IMG/VR virus record: IMGVR_UViG_3300022918_000092 | Coordinates: 1-38,851 of that record | Source: a virus | DNA length: 38,851 bases | Direction: 5' to 3' (one strand) | Shown: in pieces, positions 1-38,851 of the stretch | How the letters are laid out: each line of letters starts with the position of its first letter | How positions within the stretch are numbered: position 1 is the stretch's first letter | Notes under the pieces: model-generated | The model's database searches: none | Seen by the model: only the letters and a program-made list of their open reading frames with translations | Told to the model about the DNA's origin: nothing | Position numbers and translations under genes: made by a program

Positions 1-119
1 TCGCTGGCCTGAAAAAAGCGTCGATCGAGATCGACCGTAAGGTTCTGGCTGATCTGGCAGTGAACGAAAAAGCGGCGTTTGCTGCGATTGTCGAGAAAGC
101 TAAAGCCACTTTGGCCTAA
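1..119 (+). CDS. rplT: 50S ribosomal protein L20, C-terminal end
   Basis: The first 39 codons are open in the frame starting at base 3 and end in TAA at 117-119. The peptide (key stretch [19 protein letters not shown]) matches the C-terminus of L20, a 23S rRNA-binding protein needed early in 50S assembly. The N-terminal two thirds lie outside the window. In gammaproteobacteria rplT lies just upstream of pheST, and that order is kept here. A hairpin follows the stop codon directly. Confidence 0.93.
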
Positions 120-131
120 GTCCCCGACAAT

Positions 132-161
132 CACCGGGTCTCAGTTTTTCTGAGCCCGGTG
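132..161 (+). terminator. Hairpin after rplT
   Basis: CACCGGG-T-CTCAG and CTGAGCCCGGTG pair around a T5 loop, with one bulged T. There is no clear T-tract after the stem. It probably ends or attenuates infC-rpmI-rplT transcription before pheS. Confidence 0.6.
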
Positions 162-172
162 TTAAACGTCAT

Positions 173-1243
<1,071 letters not shown>

Positions 1244-1324
1244 GGCGCTTGGCGATGGGCAGCCAAAGAGGCCGCCATCGCAGAGCACCGGGGTCGCCCG
1301 TAACGAACTTTTTTGGAGAGCAGG

Positions 1325-3703
1325 ATGAAATTCAGTGAACAATGGTTGCGCGGCTGGGTAAGCCCGCAAGTGTCCCGGGACGAGCTGGTTGCTCGTCTGT
1401 CGATGGCCGGCCTTGAAGTCGATAGCGTCACTTTGGCTGCTGGTGAATTCAGCGGCGTGATCGTCGGCGAAGTGCTGAGCACCGAGCAACACCCGGATGC
1501 CGATAAACTGCGCGTCTGTCAGGTCAGCAATGGCTCGGAAACCTTCCAGGTTGTCTGCGGTGCACCGAACGTGCGTCCAGGCCTGAAGATCCCGTTCGCC
1601 ATGATCGGTGCCGAGCTGCCGGGCGACTTCAAGATCAAAAAAGCCAAGCTGCGCGGCGTTGAATCCAACGGCATGCTGTGCTCCCAGTCCGAGCTGCAAG
1701 TGGGCGAGGGCAATGACGGCCTGATGGAGCTGCCTGCCGATGCACCGGTGGGGCATGATTTTCGTGAGTACCTTGGGCTGGATGATGCCAGCATCGAAGT
1801 CGACCTGACGCCAAATCGCGGCGACTGCCTGTCACTGGCGGGCCTGGCCCGGGAAGTCGGCGCGCTGTACGCAACTGAGGTGACGGTCCCGGCTGTCGCC
1901 GCAGTGCCAGTCACTCACGATGAAGTGCGTCCGGTTGACGTGTTGGCCAGCGCTGCCTGCCCTCGTTATCTGGGGCGCATCATTCGCAATGTCGACCTGT
2001 CGCGACCAACGCCGCTATGGATGGTTGAGCGCCTGCGCCGTTCCGATATTCGGAGCATTGATGCCGTTGTCGACATCACCAACTATGTGATGATCGAACT
2101 CGGTCAACCGCTGCACGCGTTTGATCTGAAAGAGATCAACGGTGGTATTCGCGTACGCATGGCAGAAGAGGGCGAAAAGCTTGTTCTGCTGGATGGCCAG
2201 GAAGTCACCCTGCGGGCGGACACCCTGGTTATTGCTGACCACCAGCGCGCTTTGGCCATCGCCGGAGTGATGGGTGGTGAGCACAGCGGAGTTTCCAGCG
2301 AAACCCGTGACGTGTTCCTCGAAAGCGCCTTCTTCGATCAGATTGCTGTTGCTGGCAAAGCCCGCTCTTATGGGCTGCATACCGACGCTTCGCACCGTTA
2401 CGAGCGCGGTGTCGACTGGCAGTTGGCTCGAAAGGCAATGGAACGAGCTACTGGCCTGTTGCTGGAAATCACCGGTGGCGAAGCTGGCCCCGTGATTGAA
2501 ACTGTCAGCGAAAAAGATTTGCCTGCCATTGCCCCGGTCACTCTGCGTGCTGAGCGTATCGAGCAGATGCTGGGTCTGAGAATGGACCCTGCTGAAGTTG
2601 AGGGGTTGTTGACTGGCCTTGGCCTGAGCGTTTCCGCTGTAGCAGCAGGGCAGTGGCAGGTTGAAGTGCCAAGTCATCGCTTCGACATCAGCCTTGAGGT
2701 TGACCTGATTGAAGAGCTGGCACGTCTGTATGGCTACAACCGTCTGCCGGTTCGTTACCCCCAGGCGCGTCTGGCTCCGCAGGCCAAGGCTGAAGCCCGC
2801 AGTGACTTGCCTGAACTACGCCGTTTGCTGGTGGCTCGTGGTTATCAGGAAGCCATTACCTACAGTTTCATCGACCCTAAACAGTTCGAGCTTTTCAGTC
2901 CCGGCGTTCAGCCGCTGATGCTGGCAAACCCGATTTCCAATGACATGGCGGCAATGCGCGCTTCATTGTGGCCGGGTCTGGTCAAGTCTCTGCAACACAA
3001 CCTCAATCGTCAGCAGGATCGTGTCCGCCTGTTTGAAAGTGGTTTGCGTTTCGTCGGTCAGCTGGACGGCCTGAAGCAAGAGCCGATGTTGGCGGGTGTG
3101 GTGTGCGGTAGCCGACTGCCCGAAGGGTGGGCGCAAGGTCGCGACGTTGTCGACTTCTTTGACGTCAAAGCTGATGTTGAAGCGGTGCTGGGTTTCGCGG
3201 GTGCGCTGGATGCCTTCACATTCATGCCGGGTAAACACCCCGCGCTGCATCCTGGTCAGACTGCCCGCATCGAACGCGATGGCCGTGAAGTCGGCTATGT
3301 TGGCGCCATTCACCCTGAACTGTCGAAAACCTTGGGACTGGATCGTCCAGTGTTCGTTTTCGAGCTGGTACTGGCTGAAGTTGCACTGGGTAAAATGCCG
3401 AAATTCCAGGAGTTGTCGCGGTTTCCTGAAGTCCGACGTGACCTGGCGCTGATCGCAGATGAAGGCGTCGCCGCGACTGCAGTGCTCGAGGTTATTCGAG
3501 AAAATGCAGGCGAATGGCTCACAGACCTCAGGCTATTTGACGTCTATCAAGGTAAAGGCATTGATCCGCATAGAAAAAGCCTTGCAGTCGGCTTGACCTG
3601 GCAGCATCCATCGCGCACTCTTAACGACGATGAGGTCAATGCGGCGACGCATAAAATCCTCACCTCACTCGAGGAAAGGTTAAACGCCACGTTAAGGAAG
3701 TAG
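1325..3703 (+). CDS. pheT: Phenylalanine--tRNA ligase beta subunit
   Basis: This is the large PheRS subunit, which carries the tRNA-binding and editing domains. It has 792 residues, the usual size in Pseudomonas. In order there are an N-terminal OB-fold tRNA-binding domain (about 40-150, with the VVCGAPNVRPGLKIPFAMIG region), B3/B4 editing domain, B5 domain, a catalytic-like core, and a C-terminal ferredoxin-fold anticodon-binding domain ending near SLEERLNATLRK. I chose ATG 1325 because GGAGAG lies just upstream; a TTG at 1313 is in frame but has no better ribosome site. ihfA starts 3 bases after the stop, so translation is probably coupled. Confidence 0.98.
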   Translation: MKFSEQWLRGWVSPQVSRDELVARLSMAGLEVDSVTLAAGEFSGVIVGEVLSTEQHPDADKLRVCQVSNGSETFQVVCGAPNVRPGLKIPFAMIGAELPGDFKIKKAKLRGVESNGMLCSQSELQVGEGNDGLMELPADAPVGHDFREYLGLDDASIEVDLTPNRGDCLSLAGLAREVGALYATEVTVPAVAAVPVTHDEVRPVDVLASAACPRYLGRIIRNVDLSRPTPLWMVERLRRSDIRSIDAVVDITNYVMIELGQPLHAFDLKEINGGIRVRMAEEGEKLVLLDGQEVTLRADTLVIADHQRALAIAGVMGGEHSGVSSETRDVFLESAFFDQIAVAGKARSYGLHTDASHRYERGVDWQLARKAMERATGLLLEITGGEAGPVIETVSEKDLPAIAPVTLRAERIEQMLGLRMDPAEVEGLLTGLGLSVSAVAAGQWQVEVPSHRFDISLEVDLIEELARLYGYNRLPVRYPQARLAPQAKAEARSDLPELRRLLVARGYQEAITYSFIDPKQFELFSPGVQPLMLANPISNDMAAMRASLWPGLVKSLQHNLNRQQDRVRLFESGLRFVGQLDGLKQEPMLAGVVCGSRLPEGWAQGRDVVDFFDVKADVEAVLGFAGALDAFTFMPGKHPALHPGQTARIERDGREVGYVGAIHPELSKTLGLDRPVFVFELVLAEVALGKMPKFQELSRFPEVRRDLALIADEGVAATAVLEVIRENAGEWLTDLRLFDVYQGKGIDPHRKSLAVGLTWQHPSRTLNDDEVNAATHKILTSLEERLNATLRK

Positions 3704-3706
3704 CGT

Positions 3707-4009
3707 ATGGGGGCTCTGACGAAAGCTGAGATGGCCGAACGTCTGTACGAAGAGCTGGGCCTGAATAAACGAGAAGCCAAGGAATTGGTGGAGCTGTTCT
3801 TCGAGGAAATCAGGCACGCTCTGGAAGATAACGAGCAGGTCAAATTGTCCGGATTCGGCAATTTCGACCTGCGAGATAAACGCCAGCGTCCAGGTAGAAA
3901 CCCGAAGACCGGGGAAGAAATTCCTATCACGGCTCGCCGTGTAGTCACGTTCCGTCCAGGGCAGAAGTTGAAAGCCCGAGTTGAGGCATATGCTGGAACC
4001 AAGTCATAA
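3707..4009 (+). CDS. ihfA: Integration host factor alpha subunit
   Basis: This nucleoid protein forms a heterodimer with IhfB that bends DNA in transcription, replication and phage site-specific recombination. The 100 residues match Ihf[21 protein letters not shown] at the start, then [10 protein letters not shown], then the DNA-intercalating arm [14 protein letters not shown] with its proline. It follows pheT by 3 bases in the conserved pheST-ihfA operon. IHF is a usual co-factor of lambda-type integrases, so the prophage has inserted a short distance from a gene whose product it probably needs. That link is by known biology, not by sequence evidence here. Confidence 0.98.
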
Positions 4010-4346
4010 CGATGAGCTCCCGCCGATTCCTGGCAAACGCTACTTCACCATTGGTGAGGTCAGTGAGCTCTGCGCGGTAAAACCGCACGTTCTGCGTTAT
4101 TGGGAGCAGGAGTTTCCTCAACTCAACCCCGTAAAGCGCCGCGGTAATCGCCGGTATTATCAGCGTGAAGACGTTTTGATGATCCGGCAGATTCGTGGCT
4201 TGCTCTACGAGCAGGGTTTCACCATCGGCGGTGCGCGGTTGCGCATGACGGCGGGAGAGCCCAAGGATGAAACCCAGGAGTACAAGCAATTGCTCCGGGA
4301 AATGATCGTCGAGCTTGAAGACGTTCTGGTGGTTTTGGCCAAATAG
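3990..4346 (+). CDS. MerR-family transcriptional regulator
   Basis: This 118-residue protein begins with an N-terminal MerR winged helix: [20 protein letters not shown] is helix-turn-helix 1, and the wing contains [14 protein letters not shown] short helical dimerisation tail follows ([20 protein letters not shown]). No C-terminal effector or cysteine metal site is present, so the signal is unknown. ATG 3990 overlaps the ihfA stop by 20 bases, so expression is tied to the pheST-ihfA operon. An in-frame TTG at 3981 is less likely. It lies directly before tRNA-Pro, an arrangement common in Pseudomonas. Confidence 0.9.
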
Positions 4347-4361
4347 AAGTCGGTCAGATAC

Positions 4362-4390
4362 TTCCATAATTCAAAAGCTTAGGTTATATT
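4362..4390 (+). promoter_or_regulatory. Possible tRNA-Pro promoter
   Basis: TATATT at 4385-4390 is a fair -10 box. A weak -35 (TTCCAT, 4362-4367) sits 17 bases upstream. The tRNA begins 42 bases after the -10 box. The -35 match is poor, so this is tentative. Confidence 0.4.
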
Positions 4391-4432
4391 CCTCGAAGTT
4401 TTCGCACTTAGCGAAGCTGATACACGCCTAGT

Positions 4433-4509
4433 CGGGGCGTAGCGCAGCCCGGTAGCGCACTTGCATGGGGTGCAAGGGGTCGAGTGTTCGAATCACTCCG
4501 TCCCGACCA
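4433..4509 (+). tRNA. tRNA-Pro (anticodon GGG)
   Basis: This is a 77-nt cloverleaf. The acceptor arm CGGGGCG pairs with CGTCCCG, and CCA is encoded at 4507-4509. The anticodon stem CTTGC/GCAAG encloses loop ATGGGGT with anticodon GGG. The T arm GAGTG-TTCGAAT-CACTC is perfect. The gene is intact. It is immediately followed by the phage integrase gene in the opposite orientation, so its 3' part is the likely attB/attL core. Confidence 0.97.
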
Positions 4510-4521
4510 TTTATTCTGTAG

Positions 4522-4602: not shown

Positions 4603-5712
4603 TCAGCCCGAAATCTCCTTGATATCGAGGTCAGCGACTACCTCTGACCAGATGATGTCGTTGTGGTCTTTCTGGTAATTCCGCGTCATCCCCTCCGTTG
4701 TATGCCCCGCAATTCTTTGCCCGTCCTTGCCCGCCCGCTTGTACAGGTGGAGCGACAACGCGCGCACCTCATGAAAGCCTGGCTGCTCGGCCTCGGTCCA
4801 CTTGCTGTAGCAACCTGCAGCGTCCCTCGCGTCCTTGAACGCTCTCGTCAGAAACCTTTCCTCGACCTTCGTCCAATGCTCTTTGCCCCGTGCCTGGGAT
4901 TGTTTTTTCCGCTCTGGCTTTCGGTGGATCAGAAAAGGGGATGCGATGTCGTCACGGCATCGCGATATCACCGCGGCCAGTTCTTTCGTAAGAGCAAATT
5001 TGATCCAGCCCGCGTCACTGGCCTTTTCTGTTTTGCTCTGAATCACGTGCAGGCCGCCGTCGTGCACATCGCTGAATTTCATGCTCAGCACGTCGCCTCG
5101 GCGCTGGGCAGTGATGAGTGCCAGGTCGATGGCATTCTGTAACCAAGGCGGGGAGGCCTCGCGAATAGCCTTCAGCCCCTCAATGGTGTGCCGCTTGCGT
5201 GTCTTCTTCTCGATCTTTGGAATCGTGCTCGCAGCGGGGTTATCCGGGCAGAGACCCTTTGACGCGGCATGATTAAAAACGTCAACCAGCAGCGCCCGTG
5301 TCTGGTTCGCGCCACGTGCTGTCATGCCGTCGAGCATTTCCGCGATGTGTCGGATCGTGATCTGGTCTATGGGCTGGTCACCAAAAGCGGCCTTTATCTG
5401 CTTAGCACGGACCTTGTACAGTGCCAGCGTGGCCTTTGCCAGCTCACGCGGTGGGAGGATTTCGCGCTCATAGGTATCCAGGAACGAATACAAGGTCTGC
5501 GTTCCGCCCATGACGCCAGATACCAAATCAGTCCCCCCCATGAGCAAACTGTTCAGCTGCTTTGCTGCCTGGACCGCCTTATGCCGATCCGTGCCCATGC
5601 CGTGCCATGCCCCAGTGTCGGGTCGGCGGTACTTGAATGATTCGCCGCCGTTATTGGCATAGAGATTTGGCGGTAGCCCCTTGTGCCTGGGGCTGCGGGG
5701 GCGTGGCGACAT
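4603..5712 (-). CDS. int: Tyrosine recombinase, prophage integrase (lambda Int type)
   Basis: This 369-residue integrase should catalyse insertion and excision of the prophage at tRNA-Pro. The N-terminal arm-binding domain (about 1-60, with a KYRRPDTG stretch) is followed by a SAM-like core-binding domain (about 70-160) and the catalytic domain. All six catalytic positions are visible: Arg204 (TAQRRGDV), Lys227 (IQSKTEK), His314 and Arg317 (FHEVRALS), His337 (AGHTTEGM) and the nucleophile Tyr346 (RNYQKDH). Its 3' end faces the tRNA gene and its start overlaps the excisionase stop by one base. It is unrelated in detail to the second recombinase at 20042-21319. It appears intact. Confidence 0.95.
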   Translation of the reverse strand: MSPRPRSPRHKGLPPNLYANNGGESFKYRRPDTGAWHGMGTDRHKAVQAAKQLNSLLMGGTDLVSGVMGGTQTLYSFLDTYEREILPPRELAKATLALYKVRAKQIKAAFGDQPIDQITIRHIAEMLDGMTARGANQTRALLVDVFNHAASKGLCPDNPAASTIPKIEKKTRKRHTIEGLKAIREASPPWLQNAIDLALITAQRRGDVLSMKFSDVHDGGLHVIQSKTEKASDAGWIKFALTKELAAVISRCRDDIASPFLIHRKPERKKQSQARGKEHWTKVEERFLTRAFKDARDAAGCYSKWTEAEQPGFHEVRALSLHLYKRAGKDGQRIAGHTTEGMTRNYQKDHNDIIWSEVVADLDIKEISG

Positions 5713-19740: not shown

Positions 19741-20045
19741 GCCATCAATTCAAGTCGGGCGATCTGGCAATGATCGTCGGGGCACATACCACTCCGGAAA
19801 ACGTTGGCAAAGTATGCGAGCTGGCGGAGCTTTTGGCGCCTGAGCAAATCAGCACATGGCGCGATCCTAGTGATGGCAAGCGGGTTCAGAACGGTGATGT
19901 TGGCTCAGCTTGGGTAGTGGTTGGCGACGGGCTCACATCGTGGTGCGGTTCGAATGGCTGGGTAATGGCTGACCCGATCCATCTGATGCCATTGCGCGAT
20001 GACTTTGCGCCTGAGCAGCGCAAAGCGCAGGAAATGCCAGCATGA
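19737..20045 (+). CDS. Conserved small phage protein, SH3-like by appearance
   Basis: This 102-residue protein starts at ATG 19737, overlapping the RusA stop. The sequence is strand-rich with a KOW/SH3-like opening (FKSGDLAMIVGAHTTPENVG, then GDVGSAWVVVGDGLTSW). I know similar proteins from Pseudomonas phages as unnamed. The function is unknown. Its stop overlaps the second recombinase gene by ATGA. Confidence 0.7.
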   Translation: MSHQFKSGDLAMIVGAHTTPENVGKVCELAELLAPEQISTWRDPSDGKRVQNGDVGSAWVVVGDGLTSWCGSNGWVMADPIHLMPLRDDFAPEQRKAQEMPA

Positions 20046-21319
20046 CTGCTGCCGTGCGCATCACAGATGCCGAAATCAAACGCCAAGCCGCCGGTAGTGA
20101 GCGGGATCTGCGTGACGTCGAGAATCGCGGCCTGTACCTGCGCTTCACCCGGGACCGCGCCCGGGCGTCGTGGTACTTGGTCCGCAAAGGCAAATGGAAT
20201 CTCGTTGGCAGTTTCCCCGACCTGACCGCCAAACAGGTCGTCGCGGCACTGCCTGCTATCCGACTGCGCATTGAGGCCGGGGCCAACTCGACGCTCTCCA
20301 AGTGGGCGACCACGGGCGAGCTGCTGAACTGGTTCGCAGAGCGATACGCACGGGACCGTAGCCTCTCGGACAAACGCAAGAAGACCGGCGCGTCGATGAT
20401 CAAATGCCACCTTATGCCGTGCCTGGGCGAAACACCCTTGGCCAACATCGACAAAGCCACCCTCGACAGCCAGCTCATGTGGCCGATGCAGGAAAGTGTC
20501 TCCATCGACTACGTTCGATCGGCATTCCAGTTGCTGGCGCTGGCGTTTGGTCAGGCATTCAAACTGCGCCTGATATCGGCCAACCCGATGAAGGACATCA
20601 AATTCAAAGACTTCTCAACAGCCAAGGTCGGCATCAAGGCGTCCAGGCTGCGCGGTACCCAATTACAGGATCTGCTTCACCATCTGGCAGGGGTCATCGA
20701 ATCCAATCCGCACGACGGCATGTTGGCAGTGATGATGCTCTGCCACGGCACGCGCATCGGCGAAACCCGGCAGGCCCGCTGGTCCCACATCAGCTTGGCC
20801 GAGCGTGAGTGGTTCATTCCCAGCGAGAACACCAAGACCGGCGTCGAGCATCACTTGCCACTGACAGACCAAGTGCGGCAGTTGCTGATCTGGTACCGCG
20901 ACAAACAGCAGACCGGTGGCTATGACGGGCAGTTCCTGTTCCCCGGTCGCGGCGGTGCGGGTCTCAGTGAGGGCCGGGCCAGTGCCGTGTTCGCTCGGGT
21001 AGGGAAGGGCGAGTGGACCAGCCATGACCTTCGCAAACTGGCTCGCACGTGCTGGGCAGACATCGGCATCGATCACCTGATTGGTGAGCTGCTGATCAAC
21101 CACGCCATGGGCCACAACGTGAAGGTCTACGTCCAGTCAGGCGTTATGGACCGCAAGCGTGATGCCCTGATCAAGTGGAACGCCCATCTAGACGGGAAAG
21201 GCTTCGGCCTCATTCACACATTGACCGGCTTTAGATTCGAAGATTCTGATAATCAGCTACAGACCACGGATGGCGTGGCCTCTGGCGCAGTTGCCAACAC
21301 CACCATAGGCGAGGTTTAA
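20042..21319 (+). CDS. Second tyrosine recombinase, within the early operon
   Basis: This 425-residue tyrosine recombinase has an N-terminal DUF4102-like arm domain (about 5-80, GLYLRFTRDRARASWYLVRK). A SAM-like core-binding domain (about 90-185) and a complete catalytic domain follow: Arg238 (HGTRIGET), Lys265 (ENTKTGVE), His328 and Arg331 (SHDLRKLA), His354 (INHAMGH) and Tyr363 (VKVYVQSG). It is transcribed with replication genes, not next to an attachment site, so it is not the obvious integrase. It could resolve genome multimers, act on another site, or be a captured integrase. The C-terminal 35 residues beyond the catalytic core are unusual. It seems intact. Confidence 0.9.
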   Translation: MTAAVRITDAEIKRQAAGSERDLRDVENRGLYLRFTRDRARASWYLVRKGKWNLVGSFPDLTAKQVVAALPAIRLRIEAGANSTLSKWATTGELLNWFAERYARDRSLSDKRKKTGASMIKCHLMPCLGETPLANIDKATLDSQLMWPMQESVSIDYVRSAFQLLALAFGQAFKLRLISANPMKDIKFKDFSTAKVGIKASRLRGTQLQDLLHHLAGVIESNPHDGMLAVMMLCHGTRIGETRQARWSHISLAEREWFIPSENTKTGVEHHLPLTDQVRQLLIWYRDKQQTGGYDGQFLFPGRGGAGLSEGRASAVFARVGKGEWTSHDLRKLARTCWADIGIDHLIGELLINHAMGHNVKVYVQSGVMDRKRDALIKWNAHLDGKGFGLIHTLTGFRFEDSDNQLQTTDGVASGAVANTTIGEV

Positions 21320-32698: not shown

Positions 32699-33169
32699 AT
32701 GCCTATCAATACCGGCGCTGGCACGCGACTTTATATCGGTCCACGCCTCACCGCGAAACTGCCTGTTGCTGAAGCGGCCGCGATCACCTTGCTGTCAGGC
32801 CTGACCTATGTCGAGGTCGGCGAGCTTGAGAGCATCGGCGACTATGGCGACAGCACGAACGACGTGACTTTCGCTGGCCTGGCCGCTGGCCGAGCAGAGC
32901 ATCTCAAGGGTCTGGCAGATGCCGGTCAGTCTGAACTATCCATCGGTTTTGACAAAGGCGATGCCGGTCAACTGGCGCTGGTCCAGGCTTATCTTGATCG
33001 CTCGCGCTACGACTACCCGATCAAGGCTGTGTACGTAGACGGCAACACCGACTACTTCGCCGCGAAGGTCATGAGTAACAAGAAGACCGGCATCAGCGTT
33101 GAAGGCGTTGTGAAGCGCACCGTCACCCTGGGTATCAACTCGCAAATCTACGAAGTAGAAAGCGAGTAA
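32699..33169 (+). CDS. Major tail tube protein
   Basis: This 156-residue protein (INTGAGTRLYIGPRLTAKLP, YVEVGELESIGDYGDSTNDV, TFAGLAAGRAEHLKGLADAG) follows the tail tube pattern of HK97-type siphophages. The end VVKRTVTLGINSQIYEVESE is typical. A good AGGAGG stands before ATG 32699. Its place just before the tail assembly chaperone agrees. Confidence 0.92.
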   Translation: MPINTGAGTRLYIGPRLTAKLPVAEAAAITLLSGLTYVEVGELESIGDYGDSTNDVTFAGLAAGRAEHLKGLADAGQSELSIGFDKGDAGQLALVQAYLDRSRYDYPIKAVYVDGNTDYFAAKVMSNKKTGISVEGVVKRTVTLGINSQIYEVESE

Positions 33170-33237: not shown

Positions 33238-33594
33238 ATGTCCAAGACTGACCACGGTACAGTTGTTGTAAGCAGCGGCGACATCAGTTTTACCCTGAAG
33301 CCTACCCTGCGTGCATTCCGCGAGATTGAGCGTCGTTTCGGCGGTGTCATTGCTGCGATGCAGGCCATCGGCGTAGCAAACGTCAGCAACGTTTCGTTCA
33401 TCATCGCCGCCGGTACCGGCGTCGACACAGGCAAGCGCAAAGACGTCGAAGCGGTTGAAGAGCTGGTGTTTGCTGCTGGCGTGAACACCGTAACCAACCA
33501 GGTGCTCCCGTTCCTCAATGCGCTCCTCAACCCGGCGGGCAAGACCGACGCGGAGATTGAGCAAGAGAAAGAAGAAGCAGCGGGAAACGAGTAA
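33238..33594 (+). CDS. Tail assembly chaperone, zero-frame product (G-like)
   Basis: This 118-residue protein (GDISFTLKPTLRAFREIERR, IGVANVSNVSFIIAAGTGVD) matches tail chaperones of the GTA/HK97 kind. They coat the tape measure protein during tail assembly. The end of the gene carries GGGAAAC (33582-33588) in the phase G-GGA-AAC, shortly before the stop TAA at 33592. A fraction of ribosomes should slip to the -1 frame and make a longer G-T product of about 205 residues. Confidence 0.92.
   Translation: MSKTDHGTVVVSSGDISFTLKPTLRAFREIERRFGGVIAAMQAIGVANVSNVSFIIAAGTGVDTGKRKDVEAVEELVFAAGVNTVTNQVLPFLNALLNPAGKTDAEIEQEKEEAAGNE
33582..33588 (+). promoter_or_regulatory. Programmed -1 ribosomal frameshift site GGGAAAC
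   Basis: G-GGA-AAC is in the exact zero-frame phase for the X-XXY-YYZ rule and is close to lambda G-T GGGAAAG. After a -1 slip reading goes on with CGA GTA AAA GCG and stays open for 88 codons. Only a weak downstream pairing (GCCGG with CCGGC) is visible. Confidence 0.88.
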
Positions 33595-33854
33595 AAGCGG
33601 GGCCGGAAATCAGCACGGTAGACCTGATCTTCAAAATTGCAACCGGCTGGCTGGGCTGGTCTGCCAGTCAGGCGTGGGATACCCCGATGGTTGAAACGCT
33701 CATGGCTTGGGATTCTAAGCGTCAATTCATGATCGACACCAATCCACACGGCAAGGGCGAAGACACGAGTAAACAGTCGAAAGTACAGGTCGCCAAAGAT
33801 GCACGTATGAGCTTCCGTGTTGCTGCGATGGCGAGGAATAAAGTTATAGCGTGA
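33588..33854 (+). CDS. Tail assembly chaperone, -1 frame extension (T-like)
   Basis: This 88-codon extension is read only after the -1 slip. It has no fitting start codon or ribosome site of its own near its beginning. Its product (LIFKIATGWLGWSASQAWDT, LMAWDSKRQFMIDTN, FRVAAMARNKVIA) has the ...GW...A..M...... pattern of phage T-like domains. The T domain contacts the tail tube protein while the G part binds the tape measure protein. It is not a frameshift error. Confidence 0.85.
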   Translation, partial: RVKAGPEISTVDLIFKIATGWLGWSASQAWDTPMVETLMAWDSKRQFMIDTNPHGKGEDTSKQSKVQVAKDARMSFRVAAMARNKVIA

Positions 33855-33862
33855 CTGCTCTT

Positions 33863-33891
33863 TTGATCGAGCTCTAGGGGGATGGTAGATT
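33863..33891 (+). promoter_or_regulatory. Possible promoter of the tail-region cargo gene
   Basis: TTGATC (33863-33868) and TAGATT (33886-33891) are 17 bases apart. Both match 4 of 6 or better. They lie just after the chaperone stop and before a gene that also has its own terminator. Confidence 0.5.
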
Positions 33892-33917
33892 GCCGTCCTT
33901 CACACGGAGGTTGCGTC

Positions 33918-34307
33918 ATGAAAGTGGTAGTTGCTCTGTTGCTCGGCTTGATCGTCCTGATCCTTGCGCCGTGGCTTATTTGGTTTTTCGCGGCCGGCGC
34001 TGCGGTCTACGGGCTAATTCTCGGGATCGTCGCTGTGGTTTCGGTCCTGCTCATGGTTGGAAGCGTTCTCTGGCCGCACATCAGGGCATGGAATTCTAAA
34101 AGACGCGTCGCTGCACAGATCCATGAAGGAAACAGGATCTTTCGTGAAAAATATGCTGCACAGAATTCGGAATTAGGAGGGGCGCTTGATTGGGTTGATG
34201 ACCTCGATGACTCCAGAAGGCCCTGTGGTAAATGCCAAATGGAGATGAAATCTAGCGCCGCTCGGTGCCCGTCCTGCGGGCACAAAGTAAAAACTACCGA
34301 TACTTAG
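33918..34307 (+). CDS. Membrane protein with C-terminal zinc ribbon, cargo gene
   Basis: This protein has 129 residues from ATG 33918, with GGAGG 7 bases upstream; an earlier in-frame start at 33882 lacks a site. Two strongly hydrophobic helices (about 2-25 and 28-52: VVVALLLGLIVLILAPWLIW, AVYGLILGIVAVVSVLLMVG) are followed by a charged middle and a zinc ribbon (CGKCQMEMKSS then CPSCGHK). It stands between the tail chaperone and tape measure genes, where structural genes normally abut. Its own promoter and terminator mark it as a moron, probably expressed in the lysogen. Exclusion of related phages is a reasonable guess, not shown. Confidence 0.8.
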   Translation: MKVVVALLLGLIVLILAPWLIWFFAAGAAVYGLILGIVAVVSVLLMVGSVLWPHIRAWNSKRRVAAQIHEGNRIFREKYAAQNSELGGALDWVDDLDDSRRPCGKCQMEMKSSAARCPSCGHKVKTTDT

Positions 34308-34376: not shown

Positions 34377-37300
34377 ATGGCTGATGCCGACGTTCAAGGC
34401 ATGTTGATTCGCATTGAGGCGACAACGGCGCAGCTTCGTCAGGAAATTGCGCGAGGCGAGTCAGCGGTTGCGCAATCGGCCGGCAAAATGGACACAAGCC
34501 TTGGTCGCATCGATCACGCGTTTGATCGTGCGGGGTCCAGCGCTCAAAGCGCATCAGGTGCGATCAAAAGCGCAATTGCAGCAGCGGTAAGTGCCGCTTC
34601 CATCGGCACCATCATCAAAGCTGCCGACTCATATTCGCAAATGTCCGACCGTATCGGCCTCGCCACCAAAAGCTTTGCTGAATACAACACCGTCCAAGAG
34701 CGCTTGCTCGCCACGGCCAACCGTACCTACCGGCCACTTGAGGAGGCGCAGGAGCTTTATATCCGCACCTCGGACAGCCTGAGGTCTATGGGTTTGAGTG
34801 CTACTCAGTCCATGGACGTGATGGACAGTTTCAGCTATCTGCTGGTGACCAACTCCGCGTCGGCAGATAAGGCTAAATCCGCTATCGATGCGTATTCGAA
34901 GTCGCTGCAGACCGGCAAGGTTGAAGCTGATTCTTGGCAGGCGATCCTCGCCGCAATGCCAACCATTGTTGACACTCTTTCCAAATCGACCAGCAAATCA
35001 GCCGAGGAGATCCGTAGCCTTGGCGCTCAAGGTAAGCTCAGCCTCGACACTTTGACTCAGGGTTTGCGGAAGAGCGCTGAAGCGAACGGCCTGCTTGCTG
35101 ACAGCATGGGCGTAGCAGTTCGCGATGCAATGGTGGCGCTCAACAACGCCTTCACCGTGTATATCGGGCAGCTCAACGAAACAACTGACGGCACTGGCCT
35201 GCTTGCCTCCGGGATTTCGGTACTGGCGGACAACTTTGGAACAATTGCCGAGGTTGCCGGTGTCGCTGCGGTCGGTGCCTTGGCAGCTTACGCGCGCGGG
35301 CTTGCAGCCTCGGCTGCGGGTGCAGTACTTGCGACCAAGGCGGCTATCGATGACGCCATGGCTCGGCGCGCCCAGGCGACGGCTGTATTGCTCGCCGCTC
35401 AGGCCGATCAGCAGAAGGCGCAGACAGCAGTATTCCTGGCTGAGAAAGAGCTGGCCGCATCGAAAACCCGTATCAGTGGCATGGCAGTCGAAAAGCAGTT
35501 GTCCTTGCAGCTTGCTGAAGCCCGGATGGTTGAGGCTCGGGCCACAACTGCGGTAGGGGTCGCTCAGGGCGCTATTGTCGGAACGGGCCGAACTCTCCTT
35601 GGTTTGTTGGGTGGTCCGGCAGGTATAGCGCTCCTCGCCATTGGCGCCGCTACCGCCTTTCTGACGCTTCGGGATAACACCAGTGCGCTCGAGAAGAAGC
35701 TGGGTGATCTTTCTGATCCAATCGAAAAGCTCACAAAGCGGTTTAACGAGCTTGATCGGGCTGGCAAGTCGGTAACTCTGCGCGGGCTCCAGGAAACAAT
35801 TTCCGACACCCAAAGCAAGGTCGCCCAGATGTCGGGCGCCATGGCCGACAAGTTCGAGAACGACCTCCGCAACATGGGCGCAGCGGGTGCTGACGGTCTC
35901 ATGGCTGGGTTGGTCAGCCTGCCAACCGACACCCAAGCCGCGCTTGATTTGGTCCGCAAGGCTTCAAAAGACCAAGCTTCGGGCATCGTAGTTGATTGGA
36001 AGGCTGTGGCCGACGAACTGCGCCTTGTTCCCGGCGTCACCGAGGCAATGGCCGTCGCTCTCGAAGAAAGCGGTACTTCCTCGGCGTCGGCGGCTGCGCA
36101 GCTTAATAAGCTCAAGGAGACTGTTTCCCAGCTGACTGGCGAAACCAACGCACTCACGCAGGCCGAGCGCGAAAACGCTGCTGCGAAAGCGGAAGCCGCT
36201 GGTGTTGGCCAGAAATACCTGGAGCAGTTGCAAAAGCAGCTTGCTACTTCCCAGGACAAAACCGCCGTAGAGGCTGCGAATCGATTCATTTCCGAGAACA
36301 AGCTTCTCACTAAGGAAATGGCGGCAGAGATTCTGAAAGTCGCGTCCGCCAAAGATGCCCAAAAAGCAGCAGATGACGCTGCTGCCAAGGCAACTAAAAG
36401 TGGAACCAGCGCAGCTAAAGAGGCAGCCACCGAGCTAAAGAACCAGGCTAAGGCGCTTACTGATCTTAAAACGCAGTCCGACATAGCCATTGCTTCTGCG
36501 ACTGGCCTGGCCGCTGCCTACCTGGCTGGCACGGACAAGTCCCGAGAATTTAGCCTGCAGCAGAAGATCGAAGAGGCGCTGCTCAAAACCGGCTCCGCTG
36601 CCCGTGCAGAGGTAATTGCCAAGCTCACCGCTCAGCAGGATGCGCAGGACCGCCTGAACGTCAGCAAAGCTGCGTATGACCTGGGTAAAGAAACGGCCGA
36701 CATAATCGCTCAGGCCAAAGCCACGCTTCAGGGTGCGGACGCGCTCGCGGCCTATAACTCTGAAAAGTCGATGACCATTGCCCTTGCGGGTAAAAACATC
36801 GCCGTTGGTAGTGAGGAATACAAACAGCTTCTGGCTGCAAACAAGGCGCAGCTGGATGCTGTGAAGATTGCCCAACAGGCTGGCAACGCTACCGGGATCA
36901 TGGATCGCCTGTACCCGGAATCAGCTCTGCTGAAAAGCTACGTCGAGGACCAGAAAGCGCTCAACGCCGCGATGGAGCTGTACCCCGCCAATGCTGCCCA
37001 GTATGAGGATGCGCTGGCAAAGCTCGGGAACGAGTACGAGGTAAACCGTAGCAAGGCCACCATCTGGGGCCAGATGACCGAGGGTGCGATTGATCGCATC
37101 GACGAGGCGTTTGCCAATGCGTGGGGAAACATCGGCGACGGCGCTGCAAGCCTGTGGGACAACCTCAAGACAGGTTTCAAGCAGACTCTGGGCGAAATTG
37201 CTCACATGCTCACCACCAAGCCACTGCTGGCTTCGATCAGCAACTGGCTGACCGGCACTGACAATGGCCAGGGCCTGTCATCCGTCTGGAGCAAGCTGCT

Positions 37301-37421
37301 AGGGAGTGCCGGCGGATCCTCGTCGGGCTCATCTGGTGGTGGCCTGTTTAGCGGACTGGCTGGCGTTGGTCAGAACCTGCTCAGAACCTGCTCTCTGCCT
37401 GGAACACCATCACTGGCGTAG
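34377..37421 (+). pseudogene. Tape measure protein, N-terminal part, truncated by a duplication
   Basis: The first 998 codons are a normal tape measure protein. The start is coiled and Ala/Gln-rich (ATTAQLRQEIARGESAVAQS). A TMP domain carries SYSQMSDRIGLATKSFAEYN and YIRTSDSLRSMGLSATQSMD. A hydrophobic part (about 403-425, GLLGGPAGIALLAIGAATAF) and long helical stretches follow. At 37371-37392 an exact 11-bp tandem repeat (CAGAACCTGCT twice) shifts the frame, and translation ends after about 16 foreign residues at 37421. Without one copy the frame runs on past the window edge. The tape measure sets tail length and takes part in DNA entry, so this form is probably inactive unless the repeat is lost or is a sequence error. 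Confidence 0.85.
37371..37392 (+). repeat. 11-bp tandem duplication within the tape measure gene
   Basis: CAGAACCTGCT stands at 37371-37381 and again at 37382-37392 with no change. Eleven is not a multiple of three, so the downstream frame is displaced. Removing one copy joins GVGQNLL to SAWNTITGVGSSVASGY in one open frame. Confidence 0.95.
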
Positions 37422-38851
37422 GCTCTTCCGTGGCGTCGGGCTACGCGTCAGGCGGTATCGGCGGCGCGATCTCGGGCGGTGCAGGTTATTACGGCAACAT
37501 GCTCAACGGCATCGCCACCACGTTGTCGAGCGGCTTCACCAGCCTGATCGGCGGTAATATCGCGATCACTGGTGCGACTGCTGCTGCTACTGCTGCCACG
37601 ACTGCCGCGTTAACCGGTGTCACTGCCGAGGTTGCTGCAAGTACGGCGGCCACAGTTGGTGCTGAGGGCATCACAGCCGCAATGCTGAGCGGTGCGGTGG
37701 CCGAGGGGGCTGCGTCAGTAGGTACAAGCATCGGAGTGGCGGGCGCGACAACTGCGGCTGCATCCAGCGGCATTGCCGGGGCAATATCGGGCGCACTCAG
37801 CAGCGCGGCGGCCATGTGGCCGCTGGCAATCGTGATGGGCATGTACCAGTCCGGCAAGCTGTACGACGCCGGGGTTCGCCCGAGCATGAGCGAAATGCAG
37901 GCCACCGGCGGCGACACCGCGCTGGGTAAGGCAACCATGGCTCCAATTGCCCTGCAATCCGGCATCATGGAGCTGACCGACAAGATCAACGGCAGCATCG
38001 TTGGCGGCAAGCTGGCTGCGATTCTCAGCGGTTCGACCTTGCACCAGGCTGTATGGGGAGCGGTCGGCAAGAAGCTTTTTGGCGGTGGCTACGAGAACAA
38101 AGACTCCGGTATTCAGCTTGACGTGACCGATGGCGTGTTTGACGCCGGCGGGTTCGTGAAGCAGAAGAAAAAGGGTGGCCTGATCTCTGGATCGAGCAAG
38201 ACCAGGTATCTGCAGACTGACTTGGCACCCGAGCTGGAAGACTCGTTAGGCGCTGCTTACAACGACAAGGTCCTGAATTCCATGGGGCTGTTTTCGGCCC
38301 TCGGCGTGACCTTGAGCGAAACGGTTCTCGACGGTCTAACCATGGGTGTGACCCGGATCAGCACCGAAGGCAGGAATCAGGAGGAGATTCAGAAGGATCT
38401 GGACGCGTGGTTTACCTCGCTGGGCAATTCCGCTGTAGCTGCAATCAGTGACGCGACCAACGCTGGGGTAGGCAACTACACCTTCGACGAACTGACGACG
38501 TTCACGAACAATCTTTACTCCATCAACGACATATTCAAACTGCTGAACATCAACGCGCTGCCCGTGTCGGTCTGGGGCGGCAAGTTGACAGAGCAGTACG
38601 TCGCGATGGCTGGCGGCATGGAGGCTTTGCAGTCCGCGGCGACCTCCTACTACAACGCGTTTTTCAGCGAAACAGAGCGGGCCGACGATACACTTGCGGC
38701 AGTCCGAGCTCAGTTTAAGAGCCTGAACCTGACGCTTCCTGATAGTGCGCCTGGTTTCCGGGCGATGGTCGAGGGCATCGACAGCACGACGGACGCCGGC
38801 CGCGCGATGTACATCCAACTGATGGGCTTGAGCGACAGCGCCAAGGCGGCA
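37393..38851 (+). pseudogene. Tape measure protein, C-terminal part out of frame, open to the edge
   Basis: From 37382 the second frame is open for about 490 codons to the window end, with typical tape-measure composition. An Ala/Gly/Thr-rich hydrophobic part (SLIGGNIAITGATAAATAAT, AALTGVTAEVAASTAATVGA) and AAAMWPLAIVMGMYQSGKLY are followed by a tail-tip-side region (GVFDAGGFVKQKKKGGLISG, and FTNNLYSINDIFKLLNINAL). It has no start codon with a ribosome site near its beginning. It is the continuation of the gene broken at 37371-37392. The true stop lies beyond the window. Confidence 0.85.

Follow-up and report, generated by a model that had tools for sequence, protein, structure and literature searches.

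A private 11-bp tandem duplication, probably a recent loss-of-function mutation, in the tape measure gene of a Pseudomonas-type prophage

The prophage and its tail genes

The window, that is, the whole stretch of DNA analyzed here, is the complete IMG/VR virus record IMGVR_UViG_3300022918_000092 of 38,851 bases. Positions 1-4516 were chromosome-like, being 80-91% identical to Pseudomonas genomes (L049, L050, L055 and L056). They end at a tRNA-Pro(ggg) gene (4433-4509, + strand), which marks the host/prophage boundary and is the likely attachment site; short stretches that match the 3' part of this tRNA gene recurred in prophage-bearing contigs. The tyrosine integrase gene of the prophage (4603-5712, - strand) comes next, and the prophage carries terminase, portal, protease, capsid, neck and tail genes. 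Because the host-like sequence ends at the tRNA gene and the integrase lies next to it, the record is most likely an integrated prophage plus its left host flank, in a Pseudomonas-like bacterium. A second tyrosine-recombinase gene (phrog_1; 20042-21319, + strand) was found inside the prophage and is kept in the related record G005 (94%).

In the tail region, the gene for the major tail protein (32699-33169) is followed by a tail assembly chaperone gene of the G/GT type (33238-33854, + strand) and, from 34377, by the tape measure gene, an order that is typical of tape-measure systems. The chaperone gene was intact. Its -1 slippery heptamer, G_GGA_AAC (GGGAAAC), lies at 33582-33588, just before the zero-frame stop at 33592-33594, and reading on in the -1 frame gives 88 more codons before a stop at 33852-33854; the heptamer was conserved in several related records. 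One small ORF of 141 amino acids (33882-34307) with two CxxC pairs (CGKC...CPSC) lies between the chaperone and tape measure genes. It had no PHROGs match. Since alignments with several relatives break at this point, the ORF may be a moron.

The tape measure gene runs on the + strand from 34377 to a premature stop at 37421 (1014 aa). Its N-terminal part matched PF20155 (TMP_3) with 156.6 bits (cut-off 41; E 8e-46) and phrog_1107 with an E value of 2.3e-169, and by profile it is like the tape measure families PF20155, phrog_1107 and phrog_339. Unlike the proteins of these families, however, the copy in the window is interrupted about half-way by an 11-bp duplication. For the N-terminal part, the matches among named phages were Pseudomonas phages at 60-80%, and for the C-terminal part they were two Vibrio phages at 35%; all are distant.

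The duplication and the broken reading frame

The sequence CAGAACCTGCT occurs in exact tandem at 37371-37392 and nowhere else in the 38,851-nt window. The first copy occupies 37371-37381 and the second, identical copy 37382-37392, both as read on the + strand; the second copy is surplus relative to all 13 relatives that were aligned here. Identity with a period of 11 spans 24 nt (37370-37393), and the unit lies between the two copies of a 2-bp direct repeat, TC. This was the sole exact tandem duplication with a period of at least 10 in the window, and order-2 Markov simulations gave an expectation of 0.08 per window for periods of at least 10 and of 0.01 for period 11.

The tape-measure frame ends at a TAG codon (37419-37421) about 10 codons past the frame shift. 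The remainder of the gene (37394-38851, + strand) is out of frame and stays open until the contig end, for about 490 of the roughly 870-1030 codons expected; counted from 37370, the post-repeat frame comprises 494 codons with no stop before the contig end. In a profile search this frame matched the tape-measure families phrog_25966, phrog_7740 and phrog_24709. An earlier note on this DNA had described the tandem unit and an open downstream frame of about 490 codons with tape-measure features, and both descriptions were borne out. The note had placed the feature at 37371-38851; the start is correct, whereas the end is the end of the contig, which lies 1.46 kb downstream of the duplication and still within the tape-measure gene, and not the end of the gene.

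Relatives across the junction and the age of the break

We compared the junction base by base with that of 13 relatives, comprising nine viral contigs and four bacterial loci (P. baetica and P. iridis), in which the downstream part was 58-95% identical over the best segment. At the junction all 13 carried the 11-bp unit once and had an unbroken frame, and the duplication was absent from every one of them. An alignment-based search added 32 more loci, giving 45 distinct loci, and in each of the 45 the frame holding the downstream part can be followed back across the junction region for hundreds of codons. Thus the single uninterrupted reading frame that is seen in 45 of 45 relatives is lacking in the window. 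The continuous frames were 1168-2201 codons long, some being shortened by contig ends, and where both gene ends were present the tape measures of relatives had about 1700-2200 aa. In those of the 13 with a complete 3' end, roughly 870-1030 codons lie behind the junction, which is about half of the protein. We also searched viral_contigs for the duplicated 24-mer, the single-copy version of the region and three other window-specific patterns, and there was no match. Because the frame is continuous in all 45 relatives, these data, from a comparison with homologous tape measure genes that the earlier note had proposed as a check, show that the frame break is private to IMGVR_UViG_3300022918_000092. 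A conserved split gene was rejected on the same grounds, the gene being a single frame in every relative.

Against L002, their nearest relative, the post-junction codons had a dN of 0.028 and a dS of 0.648 (dN/dS 0.043); the last 300 pre-junction codons had a dN/dS of 0.074 against L003, the nearest relative there. These codon ratios indicate that the post-junction part is under strong purifying selection, with no sign of relaxed constraint. Since there is no downstream decay and the break is private to one record, the break is either recent or not real.

The window's version of the 11-mer was found in none of the 34 relatives that were readable there, and only 15% of relative pairs were identical to each other at the homologous 11-mer. 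Because both copies in the window are identical while relatives differ at this 11-mer, copying by slippage is favored over the joining of two diverged parents; the comparison thus argues for duplication of one sequence rather than an unequal join. For the same reason, an origin by unequal recombination of two parental sequences at the hinge was considered less likely. The earlier note had proposed that a single unselected slippage event broke the gene, and this proposal agrees with everything observed: a single copy in 13 of 13 relatives, an open frame in 45 of 45, identical copies flanked by TC, and no downstream decay.

Explanations for the break

In the reading that we favor, with a probability of roughly 0.63, the duplication arose recently by slippage and inactivated the tape measure of an integrated siphophage prophage of the Pseudomonas type. 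Replication slippage, the presumed maker of the duplication, would have been primed by the flanking TC direct repeat, so that 11 bp were copied twice at the hinge joining the gene's two halves, and the change would be present in the cell's DNA. With the shifted frame ending about 10 codons on, the C-terminal half of roughly 900 codons would not be made as part of the protein. In the distant phage TP901-1, a tape-measure mutant without the last 30 residues produced heads only and formed neither plaques nor lysogens (PMC5099701). As TP901-1 needs these residues for tails, a truncation that removes about half of the protein, as here, should be no less severe, and by this analogy it is a reasonable inference that the prophage is unable to make tails: loss of the C-terminus would prevent tail initiation, and induction would yield tailless heads.

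The locus resembles prophage pseudogenes with a small indel, in that a single private frameshift lies in a virion gene whose remainder is undecayed and whose frame is intact in relatives. The sole difference from other such pseudogenes is that the indel here is an exact 11-bp tandem duplication. We take the frameshift to be private and ordinary: a probable recent knock-out, possibly an artefact. If it is real, this is another prophage in early decay, and induction would probably kill the host without the release of infectious particles; no general picture is altered by the break.

The main alternative, possible though less likely, is that the duplication arose in assembly or sequencing, either because two contigs or haplotypes with an 11-bp overlap at the mosaic hinge were joined uncollapsed or because an erroneous read path was kept. 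The duplication is known from one record only, a single uncultivated-virus contig, and viral_contigs held no second copy of the haplotype. At roughly 37335-37350, just upstream of the duplication, the identity profile turns from L003-like (96-100%) to L002-like (about 87%); tape-measure genes of co-resident prophages have exact stretches of 181-215 bp in common, and several contigs, this one among them, end inside the gene. With the duplication within about 35 bp of the mosaic switch and the contig end in the same gene, a chimeric or mis-joined assembly is therefore possible, and more generally, since assemblies often break in these Pseudomonas tape-measure genes, single-contig indels there deserve suspicion.

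On the other hand, many relatives switch modules at the same Gly/Ser-rich hinge, so that the mosaic point itself is natural, and indels that break a frame were not in general excess in the contig. In the regions aligned with close relatives (92-98%), we saw no uncompensated frame-breaking indel besides the duplication that lay clearly within an identified gene; the other indels there kept the frame, were compensated a few bases on, lay at the edges of alignments or, where checked, fell outside identified genes. Together with the intact -1 frameshift site of the chaperone gene, this argues against a generally poor assembly. In addition, in graph assembly with a k of 21 or more, a duplicated junction normally has to occur in the reads.

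The earlier note had also offered a reversible switch. Tail production would then be turned on and off as the 11-bp unit is gained and lost, and the population would toggle between a tailless (domesticated) and a tail-competent state. We regard this as very improbable. Like slipped-strand contingency loci, the site has an intragenic tandem repeat whose 11-bp unit is not divisible by 3, so that slippage to another copy number would alter the frame, and the downstream frame is unspoiled. But a recent mutation explains the open frame equally well. Unlike those loci, which lie in surface or restriction genes, the repeat lies in a virion gene and has two copies only, with no conserved tract and no polymorphism among relatives, all of those aligned having a single copy. 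The best period-11 repeat at the site reached 6/11 in the 13 aligned relatives, and none of the 34 reached 8/11; as no relative has such a repeat there, this is not a conserved contingency locus. Among the papers searched, none brought slipped-strand mispairing and phase variation together with a tape measure, and the switch gained no positive support.

Translational rescue of the C-terminal half by ribosomal frameshifting or restart is scarcely credible: the two frames overlap over 37352-37421 and the downstream frame has a GTG at 37430, 8 nt past the stop, but the overlap contains no X_XXY_YYZ slippery heptamer, which together with the continuous frame of relatives led us to reject a programmed -1 frameshift, no clear ribosome-binding site was found before the GTG, and no relative uses a shift at the junction.

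Mosaic joint and contig ends in the tape measure gene

The tape-measure gene (34377-38851) was mosaic, being 96-100% identical to L003 over much of 36751-37335 and then about 87% identical to L002. Relatives change modules at the same place, which makes the Gly/Ser-rich hinge a mosaic joint in these Pseudomonas tape-measure genes. The exact 181-215 bp stretches were common to the co-resident pairs L013/L014 of P. iridis and L011/L012 of P. baetica, and also to L062/L071. Contigs ending inside the tape-measure gene were L013, L014, L074, L075, L082, L084, L094, L095 and L099. Exact sharing of this length between co-resident prophages is a likely cause of such assembly breaks.
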